Under the pieces are notes generated by a model. The model ran no database searches. It was given only the letters and a program-made list of their open reading frames with translations, and was not told where the DNA came from. A stretch of DNA of 64,000 bases, taken from assembly GCF_021631985.1 (NCBI RefSeq), contig NZ_CP070225.1, positions 6,014,001-6,078,000 on the forward strand, read 5' to 3'. The stretch comes from Sandaracinus amylolyticus (GTDB lineage Bacteria; Myxococcota_A; Polyangia; Polyangiales; Sandaracinaceae). The position numbers and the translations under genes were made by a program. This document shows positions 6,124 through 30,885 of the stretch, in pieces; position 1 is the stretch's first letter, and each line of letters opens with the position of its first letter.

Positions 6124-6153
6124 GAAAGCCCCGCGATTTCTCGCGGGGCTTTC
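6124..6153. terminator. Hairpin terminator (orphan copy)
   Basis: GAAAGCCCCGCGA is followed by a four-base loop and its exact complement, giving a 13-bp stem, with TGTTT next on the plus strand. The same hairpin at 14415-14444 serves the tRNA-Asn gene. Here no tRNA precedes it. Confidence 0.7.
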
Positions 6154-14414: not shown

Positions 14415-14444
14415 GAAAGCCCCGCGATTTCTCGCGGGGCTTTC
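14415..14444. terminator. tRNA-Asn terminator hairpin
   Basis: A perfect 13-bp stem with a four-base loop lies about 35 bp downstream of the tRNA 3' end. The T-rich tail is on the plus-strand side, so it may work in both directions. Confidence 0.75.
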
Positions 14445-25596: not shown

Positions 25597-26202
25597 ATGC
25601 GACGCATCGTGACGTTCGAGCGAGTGAGCACCGACGGATACTTCGCGCGCCCCGACGGCAGCCTGGACTGGGCGGTGCCGGATCCCGAGCTCGATCGCGA
25701 CGCGGTCTCCGCGATCCCGCGCTTCGACACGATCCTGCTCGGCCGCCGCACCTTCGAGATGTTCGAGATGGCGTGGCGACCGGCCGAGGGGGCGGCGCCG
25801 AGCGACGAAGATCCCCACGAGCCGGGGCGCCGCTCCGACGAGATGCGCGCGATGGGGCGCATGATCGACGAGGCCACGAAGTGGGTGTTCTCGCGGACGC
25901 TCGCGAAGCCGACGTGGCGCAACTCCAAGCTGGTGCGAGCGTTCGATCCGCGCGAGATCGAGGCGCTCAAGCGCAGCCCCGGCAAGGACGTGATCGTGTT
26001 CGGCAGCGGCTCGATCGTGTCGGCGCTGACCGAGCACGGGCTGATCGACGAGTACCAGATCATCGTGTGCCCGGTGCTGCTCGGGCGCGGGCGGCCGTGG
26101 CTCGACGGCGCGTCGCGCTCGTCGCACCTCGCGCTGCAGGAGACGAAGGCGTACCGATCGGGCAACGTCATGCTGCGCTACACCCGCCGAGGAGAGATGT
26201 GA
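25597..26202 (+). CDS. Dihydrofolate-reductase-like (RibD C-terminal) protein
   Basis: A 201-residue protein of the YwjB/YyaP type. It begins MRRIVTFERVSTDGYFARPD, with TILLGRRTFEMFEMAW, DVIVFGSGSIVSALTEHGLI and LLGRGRPWLDG, the NADPH-binding fold of RibD C-terminal reductases. The substrate is unknown. It overlaps the following YCII gene by one base (TGATG), so it belongs to the sigma-factor operon. Such reductases are common companions of ECF42 sigma factors. Confidence 0.9.
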   Translation: MRRIVTFERVSTDGYFARPDGSLDWAVPDPELDRDAVSAIPRFDTILLGRRTFEMFEMAWRPAEGAAPSDEDPHEPGRRSDEMRAMGRMIDEATKWVFSRTLAKPTWRNSKLVRAFDPREIEALKRSPGKDVIVFGSGSIVSALTEHGLIDEYQIIVCPVLLGRGRPWLDGASRSSHLALQETKAYRSGNVMLRYTRRGEM

Positions 26203-26558
26203 TGAGCGAGTTCGTCTTCTTCTTCCGCGCGAGCGATGCGGCGCAGCGCGAGGCGATGGGCACGCCCGAGCGCGCGCAGCAGAGCATGCAGAAGTGGCTC
26301 GCGTGGACGCGCGAGCTCGAAGCGGGCGGGCACCTGAAGAGCGGTGGTCTGCCGCTCGAGCGAGACGGGCGCGTGGTGCGCGGCAAGGACGTGGTCGTGA
26401 CCGACGGGCCCTACGTCGAGGTGAAGGATCTCGTCGCGGGCTTCATCGTGATCGAGGCGCGCGACATCGCGCAGGCGGTCGAGCTCTCGAAGGGATGCCC
26501 GATGCTGGCGGGCGGAGGCTCGGTCGAGATCCGCCCGGTGATCGCGCACATGACGTGA
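26202..26558 (+). CDS. YCII-related (DGPF) domain protein
   Basis: A 118-residue protein beginning MSEFVFFFRASDAAQREAMG, with KWLAWTRELEAGGHLKSGG and VVTDGPYVEVKDLVAGFIVI (the DGPF signature as DGPY), ending MLAGGGSVEIRPV. These small ferredoxin-like-fold proteins are encoded beside ECF42 sigma factors and may act with them. The start is ATG 26202, with GGAGAG upstream. It lies 4 bp from the sigma gene. Confidence 0.93.
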   Translation: MSEFVFFFRASDAAQREAMGTPERAQQSMQKWLAWTRELEAGGHLKSGGLPLERDGRVVRGKDVVVTDGPYVEVKDLVAGFIVIEARDIAQAVELSKGCPMLAGGGSVEIRPVIAHMT

Positions 26559-26562
26559 GCGC

Positions 26563-27789
26563 GTGGAGCTCGAGGCGCACCTCTTCCGGCGCGAGTCGGC
26601 GCGGTTGGTCGCCGCGCTGACGCGCGTCTTCGGCGTGCACAACCTCGCGCTCGCCGAGGACGTCGTGCAGGACGCGTTCTGCCGCGCGCTCGAGGTGTGG
26701 CGCACGCGCGGTGTGCCCGACAATCCGTCGGCGTGGCTCACCGCGACCGCGAAGCACCGCGCGCTCGACGTGATGCGCCGCGAGCGCACCGCGCGCACGT
26801 TCGCGCCCGAGCTCGCGCGCCTCCTCGACGACGAGCTCGTCGAGGAGGCGTTCGCCCCGCACACGATCCGCGACGAGCAGCTGCGCATGATGTTCTCGTG
26901 CGCCCACGCGCGGCTGCCCGAGGAGGCGCGGATCGCGCTGATCCTGAACCTGCTCTGCGGGTTCGGCGCGAGCGAGATCGCGAGCGCGCTGCTCACCGGG
27001 CGCGCCGCGATCGAGAAGCGCATCGCGCGCGGCAAGAAGGTGCTCGCGAGCGCGCGCACGCTCTTCGATCTCGACGACGCCGAGCTGGGAGCGCGTCAGC
27101 CGACCGTGCAGCGCGCGCTCTACGTGCTGTTCAACGAGGGCTACCACGGCGCGTCGGAGAGCCCGGTGCGCGTCGAGCTGTGCGCCGAGGCGATCCAGCT
27201 CGCCGCGCTCCTCGGCGAGCATCCGCGCACCGCGACGCCGGCGACCCACGCGCTCGGCGCGCTGATGTGTCTCCACGCCGCGCGACTGCCGGCGCGGATG
27301 GACGAGACCGGCGTGCCGATCGCGCTGGCCGATCAGGATCGCGCCCGCTGGGATGCGCGCCTCGTCGCCGAGGGCCTCGCGCTGCTCGAGCGCTCGGCGA
27401 GCGGGCACGACGTCACGACGTACCACCTCGAGTCCGCGATCGCCGCGCTGCACGCGAGCGCGCGCACGCTCGACGAGACCGACTGGAGCACGATCGTGAC
27501 GCTCTACGATCGTGCGATGGCGATCGCGCCCTCCCCGGTGATCGCGCTCAACCGTGCGATCGCGATCGCGCAGCGCGACGGGCCCGAGCATGGCATCGAC
27601 GCGATCGACGCGATCGTGGATCGCGAGCGGCTCGCGCGATATCCGTTCCTGCCCGCGGCGCTCGGCGAGCTCGAGCTGCGCCGAGGCAATCGCATTGCCG
27701 CACGCGCTCATCTGCGGAACGCGCTGGTGCTCGCGCGCAGCGATGCGGAGCGTCGGTTCCTCGAGAAGCGGCTCCGCGCGTGCGAGTGA
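26563..27789 (+). CDS. ECF42-type RNA polymerase sigma factor
   Basis: A 408-residue sigma factor. Region 2 is at about 15-80 (LAEDVVQDAFCRALEVW and WLTATAKHRALDVMRRE), and region 4 is around 110-160 (LRMMFSCAHARLPEEARIAL, then ALLTGRAAIEKRIARGKK). The C-terminal 200 residues carry the DUF6596/TPR-like extension of group ECF42 (LYVLFNEGYHGASES, ALNRAIAIAQRDGPEHG). ECF42 has no linked anti-sigma; its C-terminal extension is thought to control it. The start is GTG 26563. Confidence 0.93.
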   Translation: MELEAHLFRRESARLVAALTRVFGVHNLALAEDVVQDAFCRALEVWRTRGVPDNPSAWLTATAKHRALDVMRRERTARTFAPELARLLDDELVEEAFAPHTIRDEQLRMMFSCAHARLPEEARIALILNLLCGFGASEIASALLTGRAAIEKRIARGKKVLASARTLFDLDDAELGARQPTVQRALYVLFNEGYHGASESPVRVELCAEAIQLAALLGEHPRTATPATHALGALMCLHAARLPARMDETGVPIALADQDRARWDARLVAEGLALLERSASGHDVTTYHLESAIAALHASARTLDETDWSTIVTLYDRAMAIAPSPVIALNRAIAIAQRDGPEHGIDAIDAIVDRERLARYPFLPAALGELELRRGNRIAARAHLRNALVLARSDAERRFLEKRLRACE

Positions 27790-28986
27790 TCAGGCGACCG
27801 CGGCGTCCCACTCGATGCGGTGCCGGAAGAGCCACGCGAGCGAGCGCTCGTTCGCCTCTTCGCTCTGCATCCGCAGCACCCACGGCATGACCAGATCGCG
27901 CGCCCAGCGCCCGACCGGGCCGAGGGTCTTCGCGCTGCCGGTCCTCGCGCCGTGCGCGACGACGCGCTCCACCCGCGCGCGACGCAGCGACTCGTAGGCC
28001 GCGAGCGCACCGGGCACGTCGTCGACGTCGCGCAGACATCGCGCGAGCTCGACCGCGTCCTCGGCCGCCATCGACGCGCCCTGCCCCGACGACGGCGACG
28101 CAGCGTGCGCTGCATCGCCGATCACGACGATCGGCCCGCGCGACCAGGTCGGCACGCGCGGCACGTCGTACTGGCTCCTCGCGATCAGCGAGCCCTCGGT
28201 CGCCGCGATCACCTCGGCGAGCGGAGTGCGATCCGCCGACGCGAGCTCGATCAGATGCGCTCTCCAGTCGTGGCTCGCGAGCGCTTCGCGCGTGGGCTCC
28301 TCGGCGCGCGCGGGGTTCGCGAACCACCAGATCTCGCGCGAGGGGCTCACCGTGATCCCGAAGAAGCAGCGGTGCCCGAAGATCATCCGGTACGTGCCCG
28401 GCGCGAGCTCGACCGACGCCGAACGCGTGAAGCCGCCGACGTCGAGGAGCCCGTTGTAGCGAGGACGCGGCGCGCCGGGATCGATCACCTCGCGCACCCG
28501 CGAGCGAAGCCCGTCGGCGCCGATCAGCACGTCGCCCTCGACACCGTCCCCGTCGTCGAACGACGCGACCACGCGGCCACCGCGCGTGATGGTCGCGCCG
28601 GTGAAGCGCTTGCCGTGCACGATCTCGATCCCGCGGCGCCGCGCCTCCTCCGAGACGATGCGGTAGAGGTCCGCACGCTTCAGCGTGTGGGTCACGGTGC
28701 CGTCGGGGAGCGTGCCGCCGATCGGCACCGTGCCGAGCACGCGACCGGTGCCGCTGCAGAGCTCGATCGCGCGCGACGCGAACCCCGCCGCCTTCACTTG
28801 CTCGTGCACCCCGATGGTGCGCATCGCGTCGAGCCCGTTCACCGCGACCGTGAGCCACGCACCAGCCGCGAGCGACGCGCTCGGCTCGTAGGTCTCGTAG
28901 ATCGTCGCCGCGATCCCGGCGCGCGCGAGGGCGAGCGCGGCGCACGGCCCCGCGATGCCCGCGCCGATCACGATCGCGCGCTTCAT
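27790..28986 (-). CDS. FAD-dependent monooxygenase
   Basis: A 398-residue flavoprotein of the PHBH fold. It has an N-terminal Rossmann motif IVIGAGIAGPCAALALARAG, a DG motif VLIGADGLRSRVRE at about 155-168, and the GD motif VVIGDAAHAASPSSGQGAS at about 285-303. The substrate is unknown; such enzymes often hydroxylate drugs or aromatics. ATG 28986 shares ATGA with the upstream gene. Together they form the minus-strand operon facing the MarR regulator, so they are probably its targets. Confidence 0.93.
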   Translation of the reverse strand: MKRAIVIGAGIAGPCAALALARAGIAATIYETYEPSASLAAGAWLTVAVNGLDAMRTIGVHEQVKAAGFASRAIELCSGTGRVLGTVPIGGTLPDGTVTHTLKRADLYRIVSEEARRRGIEIVHGKRFTGATITRGGRVVASFDDGDGVEGDVLIGADGLRSRVREVIDPGAPRPRYNGLLDVGGFTRSASVELAPGTYRMIFGHRCFFGITVSPSREIWWFANPARAEEPTREALASHDWRAHLIELASADRTPLAEVIAATEGSLIARSQYDVPRVPTWSRGPIVVIGDAAHAASPSSGQGASMAAEDAVELARCLRDVDDVPGALAAYESLRRARVERVVAHGARTGSAKTLGPVGRWARDLVMPWVLRMQSEEANERSLAWLFRHRIEWDAAVA

Positions 28987-29660
28987 GCGATCTCCACGTC
29001 GGACGCGCCGCCGCTCACGTCGATCTCGTAGCCGTCGGCGCCGCGCACCAGGCCCGCGGACTCGAGGCGCGCCGCGCCGCCGATCGCCTCGAAGCGACGG
29101 TCGTCGAGCCGCAGCGACGACACGCCGCCGTGCACCGAGACCGCGACCCCGACCTCGACGGGGCGTCGCACCCGCAGCCGGCTCGCGCCGCCCGAGATGC
29201 GGATCGGCACGATGCCCGCGGGGCGCGGCAGATCGAGCTCGACGTCGCTGCACCCGCCGCCGACCTCGATGGCAGTGAGGGTGGCGCGCGTGAGCTCGCC
29301 GGTGAGCGACGAGACGCCGCCCCGCACCGAGAGCGACCACGCGACCGCCGGGTGCAGCACGATCGCGAGCTCGTCACGCTCACCGATGAAGAGCGCGTGC
29401 AGCCAGTCGGTCGCCGACATCGGCCACGACACGCGCACCTCGCTGCCGTGCACGCGCAGCCGCGGCACCGGACCGACGCCGGGATCGAGCGCGATCAGCG
29501 CACCGGCGCTCGGGTCGACGCGGACGTGGGTGCGGCAGAGGCCGGACGCGATCACCAGGCGCATGCGCGTCTGGCCGTCGTAGGGGATCGAGAGCGCGCC
29601 GGTGGGCTCGCTCGGGGGGCGCGCGGAGGTGCGGTAGGGGTCGCTGCCGGGCTCGTTCAT
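28983..29660 (-). CDS. Beta-rich GIN-like domain protein
   Basis: A 225-residue protein without a signal peptide. The C-terminal 130 residues are repeating short strands with the recurring pattern GGxSxLxxxL (SVRGGVSSLTGELT, EVGGGCSDVELDLP, RISGGASRLRVRRP, SVHGGVSSLRLDDR, DVSGGASDVEIA), reminiscent of adhesin-like or GIN-type beta solenoids. The same pattern makes up the C-terminal half of the divergent MarR protein. The molecular role is unknown. It is coupled to the monooxygenase gene. Confidence 0.8.
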   Translation of the reverse strand: MNEPGSDPYRTSARPPSEPTGALSIPYDGQTRMRLVIASGLCRTHVRVDPSAGALIALDPGVGPVPRLRVHGSEVRVSWPMSATDWLHALFIGERDELAIVLHPAVAWSLSVRGGVSSLTGELTRATLTAIEVGGGCSDVELDLPRPAGIVPIRISGGASRLRVRRPVEVGVAVSVHGGVSSLRLDDRRFEAIGGAARLESAGLVRGADGYEIDVSGGASDVEIA

Positions 29661-29734
29661 CGTCGATCTCCTCGGGTTGGCGGGGGGAGAGCGTCGCGGT
29701 AGCGTTGGCGCTCACCCAACCAGACTCTCTGACC

Positions 29735-29763
29735 GTCGATATCTTAGTGGCTAAGATATCGAC
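29735..29763. promoter_or_regulatory. Perfect inverted repeat, probable MarR operator
   Basis: GTCGATATCTTAG-TGG-CTAAGATATCGAC has 13-bp perfect arms. It lies 25 bp before the GTG start of the MarR gene and 75 bp from the divergent operon start, so one dimer site could control both directions. Confidence 0.8.
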
Positions 29764-29787
29764 TCGTCAAGAAGGCGAGCGTCCGTC

Positions 29788-30885
29788 GTGTCCCGTCCCC
29801 GCAAGTCCGACCGTGTCCGGCCGCTCGAGCGCGCGCTCCATCGCGTGGGCGAGGCCGAGCGCCGCCTCCGCCAGGCCGCTGCGGATCGTCTCGGCCTCGG
29901 CATCACGGATCTCGAGGCGCTGCTCCTGCTCGACGAGTCGGGCCCGATCGCCGCGGGGCGCATCGCCGAGGCGCTGGTGATCACCACCGGCGCGGTCACC
30001 GGGCTCGTCGATCGCCTCGAGCGCGCGGGCTGGGTGCAGCGCACCCGCGGCGAGGCCGATCGCCGGCAGGTGTTGGTCGAGCTCGCGCCGGCGCGACGCG
30101 ACGTGATCGACGCGCACCGAGCGTCGCGCGAGCGGCTGCTCGTGGAAGCGCTCTCGGGCGTCGACGACGCGACGCTCTCCGCCAGCATCGCGCTGCTCGA
30201 GACCGCGGCGGAGCGCCTGCTCGCGGGCATCGCGGCGTTCGGGCAGCCGCCGGTCGACGAGAGCGCCGAGCGCGCGAGCGAGGACGGCACGCGCGCGCCG
30301 ATCGGGAGCGCCGAGCGCGGCCGGCTGCGCTTCGTGTCCGGCGCGCCGAAGCTGACGCTGCGCGGGGCGCGCATCCGCGACCTCTACCGCGCAACCTTCG
30401 ACGGCAAGCGCCCGCAGGTGCGCGTCGAGCCCGACGGCACCGTGACCTTCCAGTACAAGGGCTTCTCCTGGCTCGGCCGTCACGATCTCGGCGCCGAGCT
30501 CGTGCTCACCAGCGCGGTGCCGTGGACGATCGAGATCAAGGGCGGCGTCGCCCAGCTCGATGCGGATCTGCGCGACGTGGACGTGCGCGCGATCGACATC
30601 ACCGGCGGCGCGAGCGAGTGCGAGCTCCACCTGCCGAGGCCGCGCGGCACCGCGACGCTGCGCGTGACCGGCGGCGCGAACCACGTCGTGGTGCGACGCC
30701 CGCGCGGCGCGGCGGCGCAGGCGGTGGTCCGCGGTGGCGCGAACAGCCTCGCGTTCGACGATCAGCGCATGGGCTCGTTCGGCGCGACCGCGCGCTTCGC
30801 GACACGCGGCTGGGAGAGCGCGGCGGATCGCTGGTCGATCGAGCTCACCGGCGGCGCGAGTGATCTGTCGGTGACCGAGGAGTGA
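29788..30885 (+). CDS. MarR regulator fused to a GIN-like beta domain
   Basis: A 365-residue protein from GTG 29788. Residues 1 to about 150 are a MarR winged helix: DLEALLLLDESGPIAAGRIA, LVITTGAVTGLVDRLERAG, then WVQRTRGEADRRQVLVEL (the wing). After a linker, residues about 175-365 are short beta strands with the GG-A/V-x-x-L pattern (DITGGASECELHLP, RVTGGANHVVVRRP, LTGGASDLSVTE), paralogous to the divergently encoded protein. MarR proteins normally stop at about 150 residues, so the fusion is unusual. The second domain may sense a ligand or bind its relative. It converges with the LysR gene and overlaps its end. Confidence 0.9.
   Translation: MSRPRKSDRVRPLERALHRVGEAERRLRQAAADRLGLGITDLEALLLLDESGPIAAGRIAEALVITTGAVTGLVDRLERAGWVQRTRGEADRRQVLVELAPARRDVIDAHRASRERLLVEALSGVDDATLSASIALLETAAERLLAGIAAFGQPPVDESAERASEDGTRAPIGSAERGRLRFVSGAPKLTLRGARIRDLYRATFDGKRPQVRVEPDGTVTFQYKGFSWLGRHDLGAELVLTSAVPWTIEIKGGVAQLDADLRDVDVRAIDITGGASECELHLPRPRGTATLRVTGGANHVVVRRPRGAAAQAVVRGGANSLAFDDQRMGSFGATARFATRGWESAADRWSIELTGGASDLSVTEE

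Follow-up and report, generated by a model that had tools for sequence, protein, structure and literature searches.

A MarR-type regulator fused to a C-terminal Toastrack beta-helix was identified in a 64,000-nucleotide stretch of Sandaracinus amylolyticus DNA (contig NZ_CP070225.1, positions 6,014,001 to 6,078,000; hereafter the window, in whose numbering positions are given). Its gene lies divergent from a two-gene operon encoding a stand-alone Toastrack protein and a flavin adenine dinucleotide (FAD)-dependent monooxygenase, and a perfect inverted repeat sits between them. What is new here is that the architecture recurs. Searches with hidden Markov models found 51 MarR-Toastrack fusions in at least three phyla, including Chloroflexota, a Myxococcaceae order and Actinomycetota, so that a unique local fusion can be rejected. 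The locus is best read, with a probability of about 0.55, as a compact xenobiotic or antibiotic response unit, in which a MarR autorepressor controls a detoxification operon and the Toastrack domain is the signal-receiving module. This reading draws on the homology and common fold of the two beta domains, the conservation of the operator, the overlapping genes of the divergent operon and the association of the family with export and detoxification genes.

Domain structure of the fusion regulator

The regulator gene (29788-30885, + strand, GTG start) encodes a protein of 365 amino acids. Its MarR domain was recognized by two Pfam models above their cut-offs, PF01047 (52.6 bits against a cut-off of 24.6, residues 40-95) and PF12802 (42.9 against 27). 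AlphaFold modeling, with input restricted to window proteins and proteins from related loci, gave a mean predicted local distance difference test score (pLDDT) of 91.6. In this model the helices of the MarR dimerisation and winged-helix part extend to residue 151 (residues 1-151, 29788-30240), followed by a low-confidence linker (residues 153-164, 30244-30279; pLDDT below 50 at 153-157 and 159-164) and a beta-rich domain of about 197 residues, from about residue 169 to 365 (30292-30882). The predicted template modeling score of 0.59 leaves the relative placing of the two domains uncertain. The initial annotation, which described a MarR protein with about 190 additional residues containing repeated strands, was therefore correct. 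Foldseek returned 4QRK as the top match for the fusion (E 7.7e-10, TM-score 0.72 by target), while ranks 2-50 were all MarR structures.

The stand-alone protein and the divergent operon

The divergent gene (28983-29660, - strand, ATG start) encodes a protein of 225 amino acids, modeled at a mean pLDDT of 82.7. Its first Foldseek match was again 4QRK (E 1.5e-8), and VIA-align superposed the two with a Z score of 21.5 over 197 residues at a root-mean-square deviation of 2.7. The C-terminal part of the fusion and the stand-alone protein share 36% identity over 162 amino acids (BLASTP, E=3e-29), which confirms the paralogy claimed for them from the sequence, and the structural similarity that the same source had proposed to check was found, both models matching 4QRK. 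This structure is cited as an example of Toastrack, a domain that unifies DUF2154, DUF4097 and DUF2807, in the available text of PMC11237479. Both beta domains are thus predicted to have the Toastrack fold. Neither was matched by Pfam (maximum E-value 10) or NCBIfam, and the curated Toastrack Pfam models (DUF4097, Toast_rack_N, LiaF-like_C) gave no match for either. Their predicted membership is based on the fold and on relatives, among them L035, which matches Toastrack Pfam models weakly, below the cut-offs.

The second gene of the operon (27790-28986, - strand) encodes the FAD-dependent aromatic monooxygenase (PF01494, 7.9e-29). Its start codon overlaps the stop codon of the stand-alone Toastrack gene in an ATGA (28983-28986, - strand), and the same junction is present in G001, the closest relative examined (same genus, 10.3 Mb). 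The best NCBIfam family was PRK06847, below its cut-off, and the closest relatives in the PDB were 6-hydroxynicotinate 3-monooxygenases. A tetracycline destructase (TetX-like) was considered and rejected, with NCBIfam tet_destruct scoring 44.9 bits against a cut-off of 550. The enzyme appears to be a general aromatic FAD monooxygenase rather than a TetX-like one.

The inverted repeat and its conservation

Regulators of the MarR family usually have a palindromic operator near their own start codon and lie beside drug or detoxification genes. A palindromic site of this type was found here, with like sites in the family. The 127-bp intergenic region contains a perfect 13-3-13 inverted repeat, GTCGATATCTTAG-TGG-CTAAGATATCGAC (29735-29763), as the initial annotation had noticed, with a 19-bp candidate operator core (29740-29758). 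Simulating the 64-kb window 20 times under a Markov-1 model yielded a mean of 0.45 perfect repeats with arms of at least 13 and spacers of at most 10, whereas the window itself holds five such entries at four places. Repeats of such length are therefore over-represented across the window, and length by itself is no argument for 29735-29763. This repeat is A+T-rich in a window of 71% G+C, whereas the other three places have G+C-rich arms. Its 19-bp core occurs once in the 10.96-Mb, two-contig genome when two mismatches are allowed, and the regulon is therefore probably local. In G001 the repeat core (11-3-11) is retained and one base breaks the outer arm. A chance origin was rejected because the repeat is A+T-rich, unique in the genome and resembled by sites upstream of homologous genes.

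A scan for promoters and terminators gave no terminator and one promoter-like site, a putative sigma-70-like promoter of the Toastrack-monooxygenase operon (TTGACG, 18 nt, TAAGAT; 29741-29770, - strand). It matches the consensus at 9/12 positions (shuffles, mean 0.0), and its -10 element falls within the operator.

The motif TATCTTAG-N3-CTAAGATA was then sought upstream of other fusions, using the 150 bp upstream of each and 500 dinucleotide shuffles per sequence. Thirty of the first 34 fusions were used; the window and G001 were set aside as the source of the motif, L174 for a mis-called start and L196 for too little upstream DNA. The motif reached p<0.05 in 23/30 and p<0.01 in 19/30, in a set whose members are related, so that the 30 tests are not independent. 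The best site stood at exactly -46 in 12 of the 30. With its start re-set, L174 scored 15/16 at -45, and 17 fusions fetched later scored between 9/16 and 14/16 without shuffles. By sequence, the repeat behaves like the conserved operator of a regulator family, to which the protein would bind. A related dyad, TATCTCGATTATCAAGATA, was observed at -47 in Bacillus MarR relatives (L107, L114, L116, L081).

Distribution of the fusions

A survey of MarR fusions had been suggested at the outset, and its yield of 51 was obtained from fetched high-scoring loci rather than a random sample (12/16, 17/20 and 17/20 of the fetched regions, plus L024, L042-L044 and the window). One locus, L187, was dropped as a repeat of the L044 fusion, and L185, L186, L188, L193, L195, L206, L240, L241 and L247 were fetched and contain no fusion. 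Two loci, L196 and L242, end at contig ends. The many-genome searches scored between 8 and 36 first-look candidates in each genome, and all genome counts are therefore lower bounds.

A first alignment matched at least 3/282 genomes of the window's phylum (its own, G001 and G239), the match in G239 being a LiaF-like protein. A scan for MarR relatives returned at least three full-length fusions, in Thermomicrobiales, Chloroflexia and Myxococcaceae genomes (L042-L044). A profile built from these three gave Toastrack matches, not all of them fusions, in at least 170/400 genomes of the phylum of L042 and at least 14/145 genomes of the order of L044, one match being weak. With a wider profile, matches were found in at least 20/296 genomes of the phylum represented by a Streptomyces genome (E 1e-15) and again in at least 3/282 genomes of the window's phylum. 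Within the family group of the window, the domain was present in two of the ten genomes searched (G000 and G001), which indicates a patchy distribution. This Toastrack was absent from all 77 unfused MarR loci examined, among the matches listed. No relative turned up when genome contigs were scanned with the first four Toastrack sequences, and a tblastn search of plasmids with either beta domain gave no match. An apparent Toastrack match in G034 was rejected as a molybdopterin oxidoreductase locus.

Two of the loci without a fusion have unusual arrangements. At L185 (4725-5435) a second Toastrack locus of G855 is split over two frames, which may reflect decay of this copy or a frameshift introduced in sequencing. 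At L195 (4211-5500) the order is reversed and the parts are unfused: a Toastrack gene comes first, and a separate MarR-like gene begins 19 bp further on in the same direction.

Neighboring genes of the fusions

The genes divergent from the fusions were tallied as the nearest one of a recognized class within 1.5 kb, for the 46/51 fusions with at least 1000 bp of upstream DNA. Classes were assigned by phmmer similarity to eight seed proteins, seven of which were named by their best NCBIfam family, several below the curated cut-off, and the monooxygenase seed by Pfam and NCBIfam. ATPases of ATP-binding cassette (ABC) transporters account for 24/46, comprising 17 of DrrA type and 7 of LolD/MacB type. 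The remaining classes are stand-alone Toastrack (5), beta-lactamase-like serine hydrolase (3), major facilitator superfamily (MFS) transporters (3; two EmrB-like, one other) and Rgt/MGT-like glycosyltransferase (2). Among the five fusions with short upstream DNA, L178 has an ABC gene and L182 a stand-alone Toastrack. One more LolD/MacB-type ABC gene lies behind the stand-alone Toastrack gene of L179. The theme of these neighborhoods is the export or modification of toxic compounds.

The link with a monooxygenase may predate the fusion, as 5/75 unfused relatives (L045-L121 set) have a window-like divergent FAD monooxygenase. At L249 (2917-4137) an open reading frame (ORF) 183 bp downstream of the fusion, in the same orientation, looks FAD-monooxygenase-like by eye from its N-terminus; it gave no match to the window's monooxygenase at 1e-10.

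The recurring divergent pair

A stand-alone Toastrack gene is divergent from the fusion at 6/51 loci, namely the window, L024 (same genus as the window) and L173, L179, L182 and L183, which come from genomes of the Myxococcaceae order of L044. In the window the intergenic region measures 127 bp, with the operator 29 bp from the fusion and 79 bp from the partner. The corresponding values for L024, L173, L179 and L182 are 125-127, 27-29 and 78-81 bp, whereas L183 differs (194, 133, 42). Such near-identical geometry across loci indicates that the divergent pair is a recurring unit and no accident.

A tree of 44 domains was poorly resolved, 18/41 inner branches being well supported. One clade of the stand-alone copies of the window, G001, L173, L179 and L182 was not rejected (approximately unbiased (AU) test, p=0.115), while a single clade of all six stand-alone copies was weakly rejected (AU p=0.038), as was a sister relation of the two Toastrack domains of the genus itself (p=0.043). 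The two domains are 36% identical, against 84-99% between species, and so are not the product of a recent duplication within the genus.

The fusion proteins of the window and of G001 are 97% identical, and their stand-alone partners 84%. In the same comparison, the ratio of nonsynonymous to synonymous substitution rates (dN/dS) was 0.042 for the MarR part, 0.035 for the Toastrack of the fusion, 0.173 for the monooxygenase and 0.357 for the partner. Judged by these ratios, the fusion's Toastrack matters to the cell, being as constrained as the MarR part; the partner is under much weaker constraint, or is changing along with something else.

Proposed mechanism and alternatives

In the preferred scheme, the MarR-Toastrack protein would bind the single palindromic operator of the intergenic region and, when bound, repress its own gene together with the divergent operon. 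A signal would enter via the C-terminal Toastrack, as a small molecule or as a docked protein; the input might instead be received by the MarR pocket, with the Toastrack as amplifier. The signal would release the repressor, and the monooxygenase would then modify the compound. The stand-alone Toastrack, which would be translated together with the enzyme, may duplicate the sensory module and probably acts back on the system, either as a competitor for the same ligand or as a pairing partner of the regulator's Toastrack. DNA binding, repression, the signal and the role of the partner are what we infer in this scheme, and the uniqueness of the operator and its overlap with the putative divergent -10 element fit a local autorepressor.

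Several observations weigh against this scheme. No significant operator was found within 150 bp in 7/30 fusions, although L183, one of these, has a site further out. An operator scoring at least 14/16 also stands beside 7/77 unfused relatives, among the matches listed, which makes it a site of the helix-turn-helix (HTH) subfamily and uninformative about the Toastrack. The promoter is a consensus match only, within a G+C-rich genome. The divergent gene was scored as none or other at 9/46 fusions, and at L203, L204, L207, L238, L244 and L245 it lies about 485-720 bp off, leaving room for another gene. When the same script was applied to unfused relatives (n=75, among the matches listed), it returned ABC 0, FAD monooxygenase 5, EmrB-type MFS 5 and none or other 65, a contrast with the fusions that is biased because the seeds were taken from fusion neighbors and the window, which favors fusions, and because the unfused set is mostly Streptomyces. 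Finally, the dN/dS of the partner argues against a conserved essential role.

The initial annotation had proposed that a regulator sharing a domain with its probable target suggests self-recognition. Here the stand-alone Toastrack would pair with that of the regulator as an anti-repressor or co-repressor, giving a built-in feedback loop. The homology and common fold of the two domains speak for it, as do the position of the partner as first gene of the divergent operon and the recurrence of the pair, at almost the same spacing, in G001 and three other genomes (a fourth has different spacing). As a general principle the idea did not hold, since 43/49 fusions lack a divergently encoded stand-alone Toastrack of this type next to them (L044 and L196, with less than 250 bp of upstream DNA, stand outside this count); the extra domain of the fusion therefore does not exist for recognizing its target. 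Stand-alone copies are not grouped by the tree, although the clade of five was not rejected, and a partner dN/dS of 0.36 against 0.035 for the regulator's Toastrack is not suggestive of a closely conserved interface between the two. Self-recognition within the pair is possible, though doubtful as the explanation of the locus, and cannot be the general mechanism of the family.

Equally tentative is the view that the Toastrack is a mere oligomerisation or stability module and that sensing is left to the usual MarR pocket. Unfused relatives use the same operator, so the HTH part works without a Toastrack; against this stand the retention of the domain in fusions of at least three phyla and its constraint between the window and G001.

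A further, speculative extension of the preferred reading would make the Toastrack a cytoplasmic drug- or metabolite-binding domain, MarR-Toastrack proteins one-component sensors of toxic compounds in several phyla, and the stand-alone copy a titrating decoy. If true, the decoy would set the response threshold or end the response.

It is rather unlikely that the beta-helix is a protein-docking surface that, under envelope stress, brings the regulator into a complex below the membrane and so frees the DNA. Toastrack is proposed as a docking platform, with mention of fused or associated HTH domains, in the available text of PMC11237479, and LiaF-like relatives appeared in the same searches (L035, with its weak Pfam matches, and L206, called by eye). 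Typical neighbors of the fusions are instead exporters and modifying enzymes, and the PSP/Lia families (PspA, PspC, LiaI-LiaF-TM) matched 0/8 proteins at or beside the locus, the rest of the genome not being searched; membership of the genes at the locus in these systems was rejected.

Improbable, too, is a partner acting as a sponge or substrate-presenting protein, which would bind the regulator's compound and buffer it or pass it to the monooxygenase or exporter: stand-alone Toastrack genes do lie directly upstream of the monooxygenase gene in the window, of a LolD/MacB-type ABC gene at L179 (43 bp) and of an EmrB-type MFS ORF at L193, but no evidence of ligand binding by Toastrack was found, and the copy at L173 is followed by a convergent short-chain dehydrogenase/reductase gene, with no enzyme or exporter gene directly behind it.

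Relation to known systems

The fusion has its MarR domain in common with MarR repressors such as YusO (1s3j), MftR (8ylg) and MarR (3voe). The matched MarR-type PDB sequences measure 138-195 amino acids, to which the fusion family adds a Toastrack of about 195. Both beta domains share their predicted fold with known Toastrack proteins (DUF4097/DUF2154/DUF2807; LiaF, LiaG; 4QRK). The known domains come after transmembrane, SHOCT-like, HAAS or PspC segments, as far as described in the available text of PMC11237479, whereas here one follows a MarR domain and the second copy stands alone. The HAAS-PadR-Toastrack systems and the Listeria PadR repressor LltR likewise combine a PadR-type repressor and a Toastrack protein at one locus (PMC11237479 and PMC6624303, in the parts available). 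In those systems the repressor and Toastrack are separate and a HAAS/DUF1700 protein is added; here they form one chain, with another HTH family. When LltR is lost, a separate DUF4097 gene is expressed more strongly, according to the accessible part of PMC6624303.

On the Streptomyces plasmid NZ_CP107897 (L040, 3040-4399), a DUF4097 gene lies 139 bp beyond a MarR relative, in the same orientation; unlike here the pair is unfused, and its 258-aa DUF4097 protein matches PF13349. In the lunaemycin cluster, one DUF4097 gene is listed immediately behind a DrrA-type antibiotic exporter gene, and no MarR fusion appears in the table portions of PMC9866976 that were available. The term MarR occurs nowhere in the main text of PMC11237479, supplements apart, in the form available, and no description of a MarR-Toastrack protein was found in a partial search of the open-access literature.

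Toastrack (DUF4097/LiaF-C) is widespread and tied to envelope stress, its ligands being unstated in the available text of PMC11237479. The fusions, mostly beside export or detoxification genes, offer a route to what this poorly understood domain senses, and a soluble repressor with a Toastrack, a candidate operator and a likely detoxification output would permit a simple reporter assay for what the domain binds. The locus is a natural case of a regulator and its likely target with a common module, and annotation beside drug exporters gains a regulator architecture that spans at least three phyla.

Additional observations

At L193 (4827-7549, from the Chloroflexota search) the stand-alone Toastrack gene has the EmrB-type efflux ORF directly downstream. 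It has no operator-like site upstream (best 8/16), and its genome, G509, has a fusion elsewhere. In the window, genes for a RibD_C-domain protein, a YCII-domain protein and a sigma-70 region 2/4 and DUF6596 protein lie in a row (25597-27789, + strand), convergent with the monooxygenase gene. Two copies of one perfect 13-4-13 inverted repeat, with GAAAGCCCCGCGA as first arm, were found at 6124-6153 and 14415-14444; this repeated element is perhaps terminator-like.

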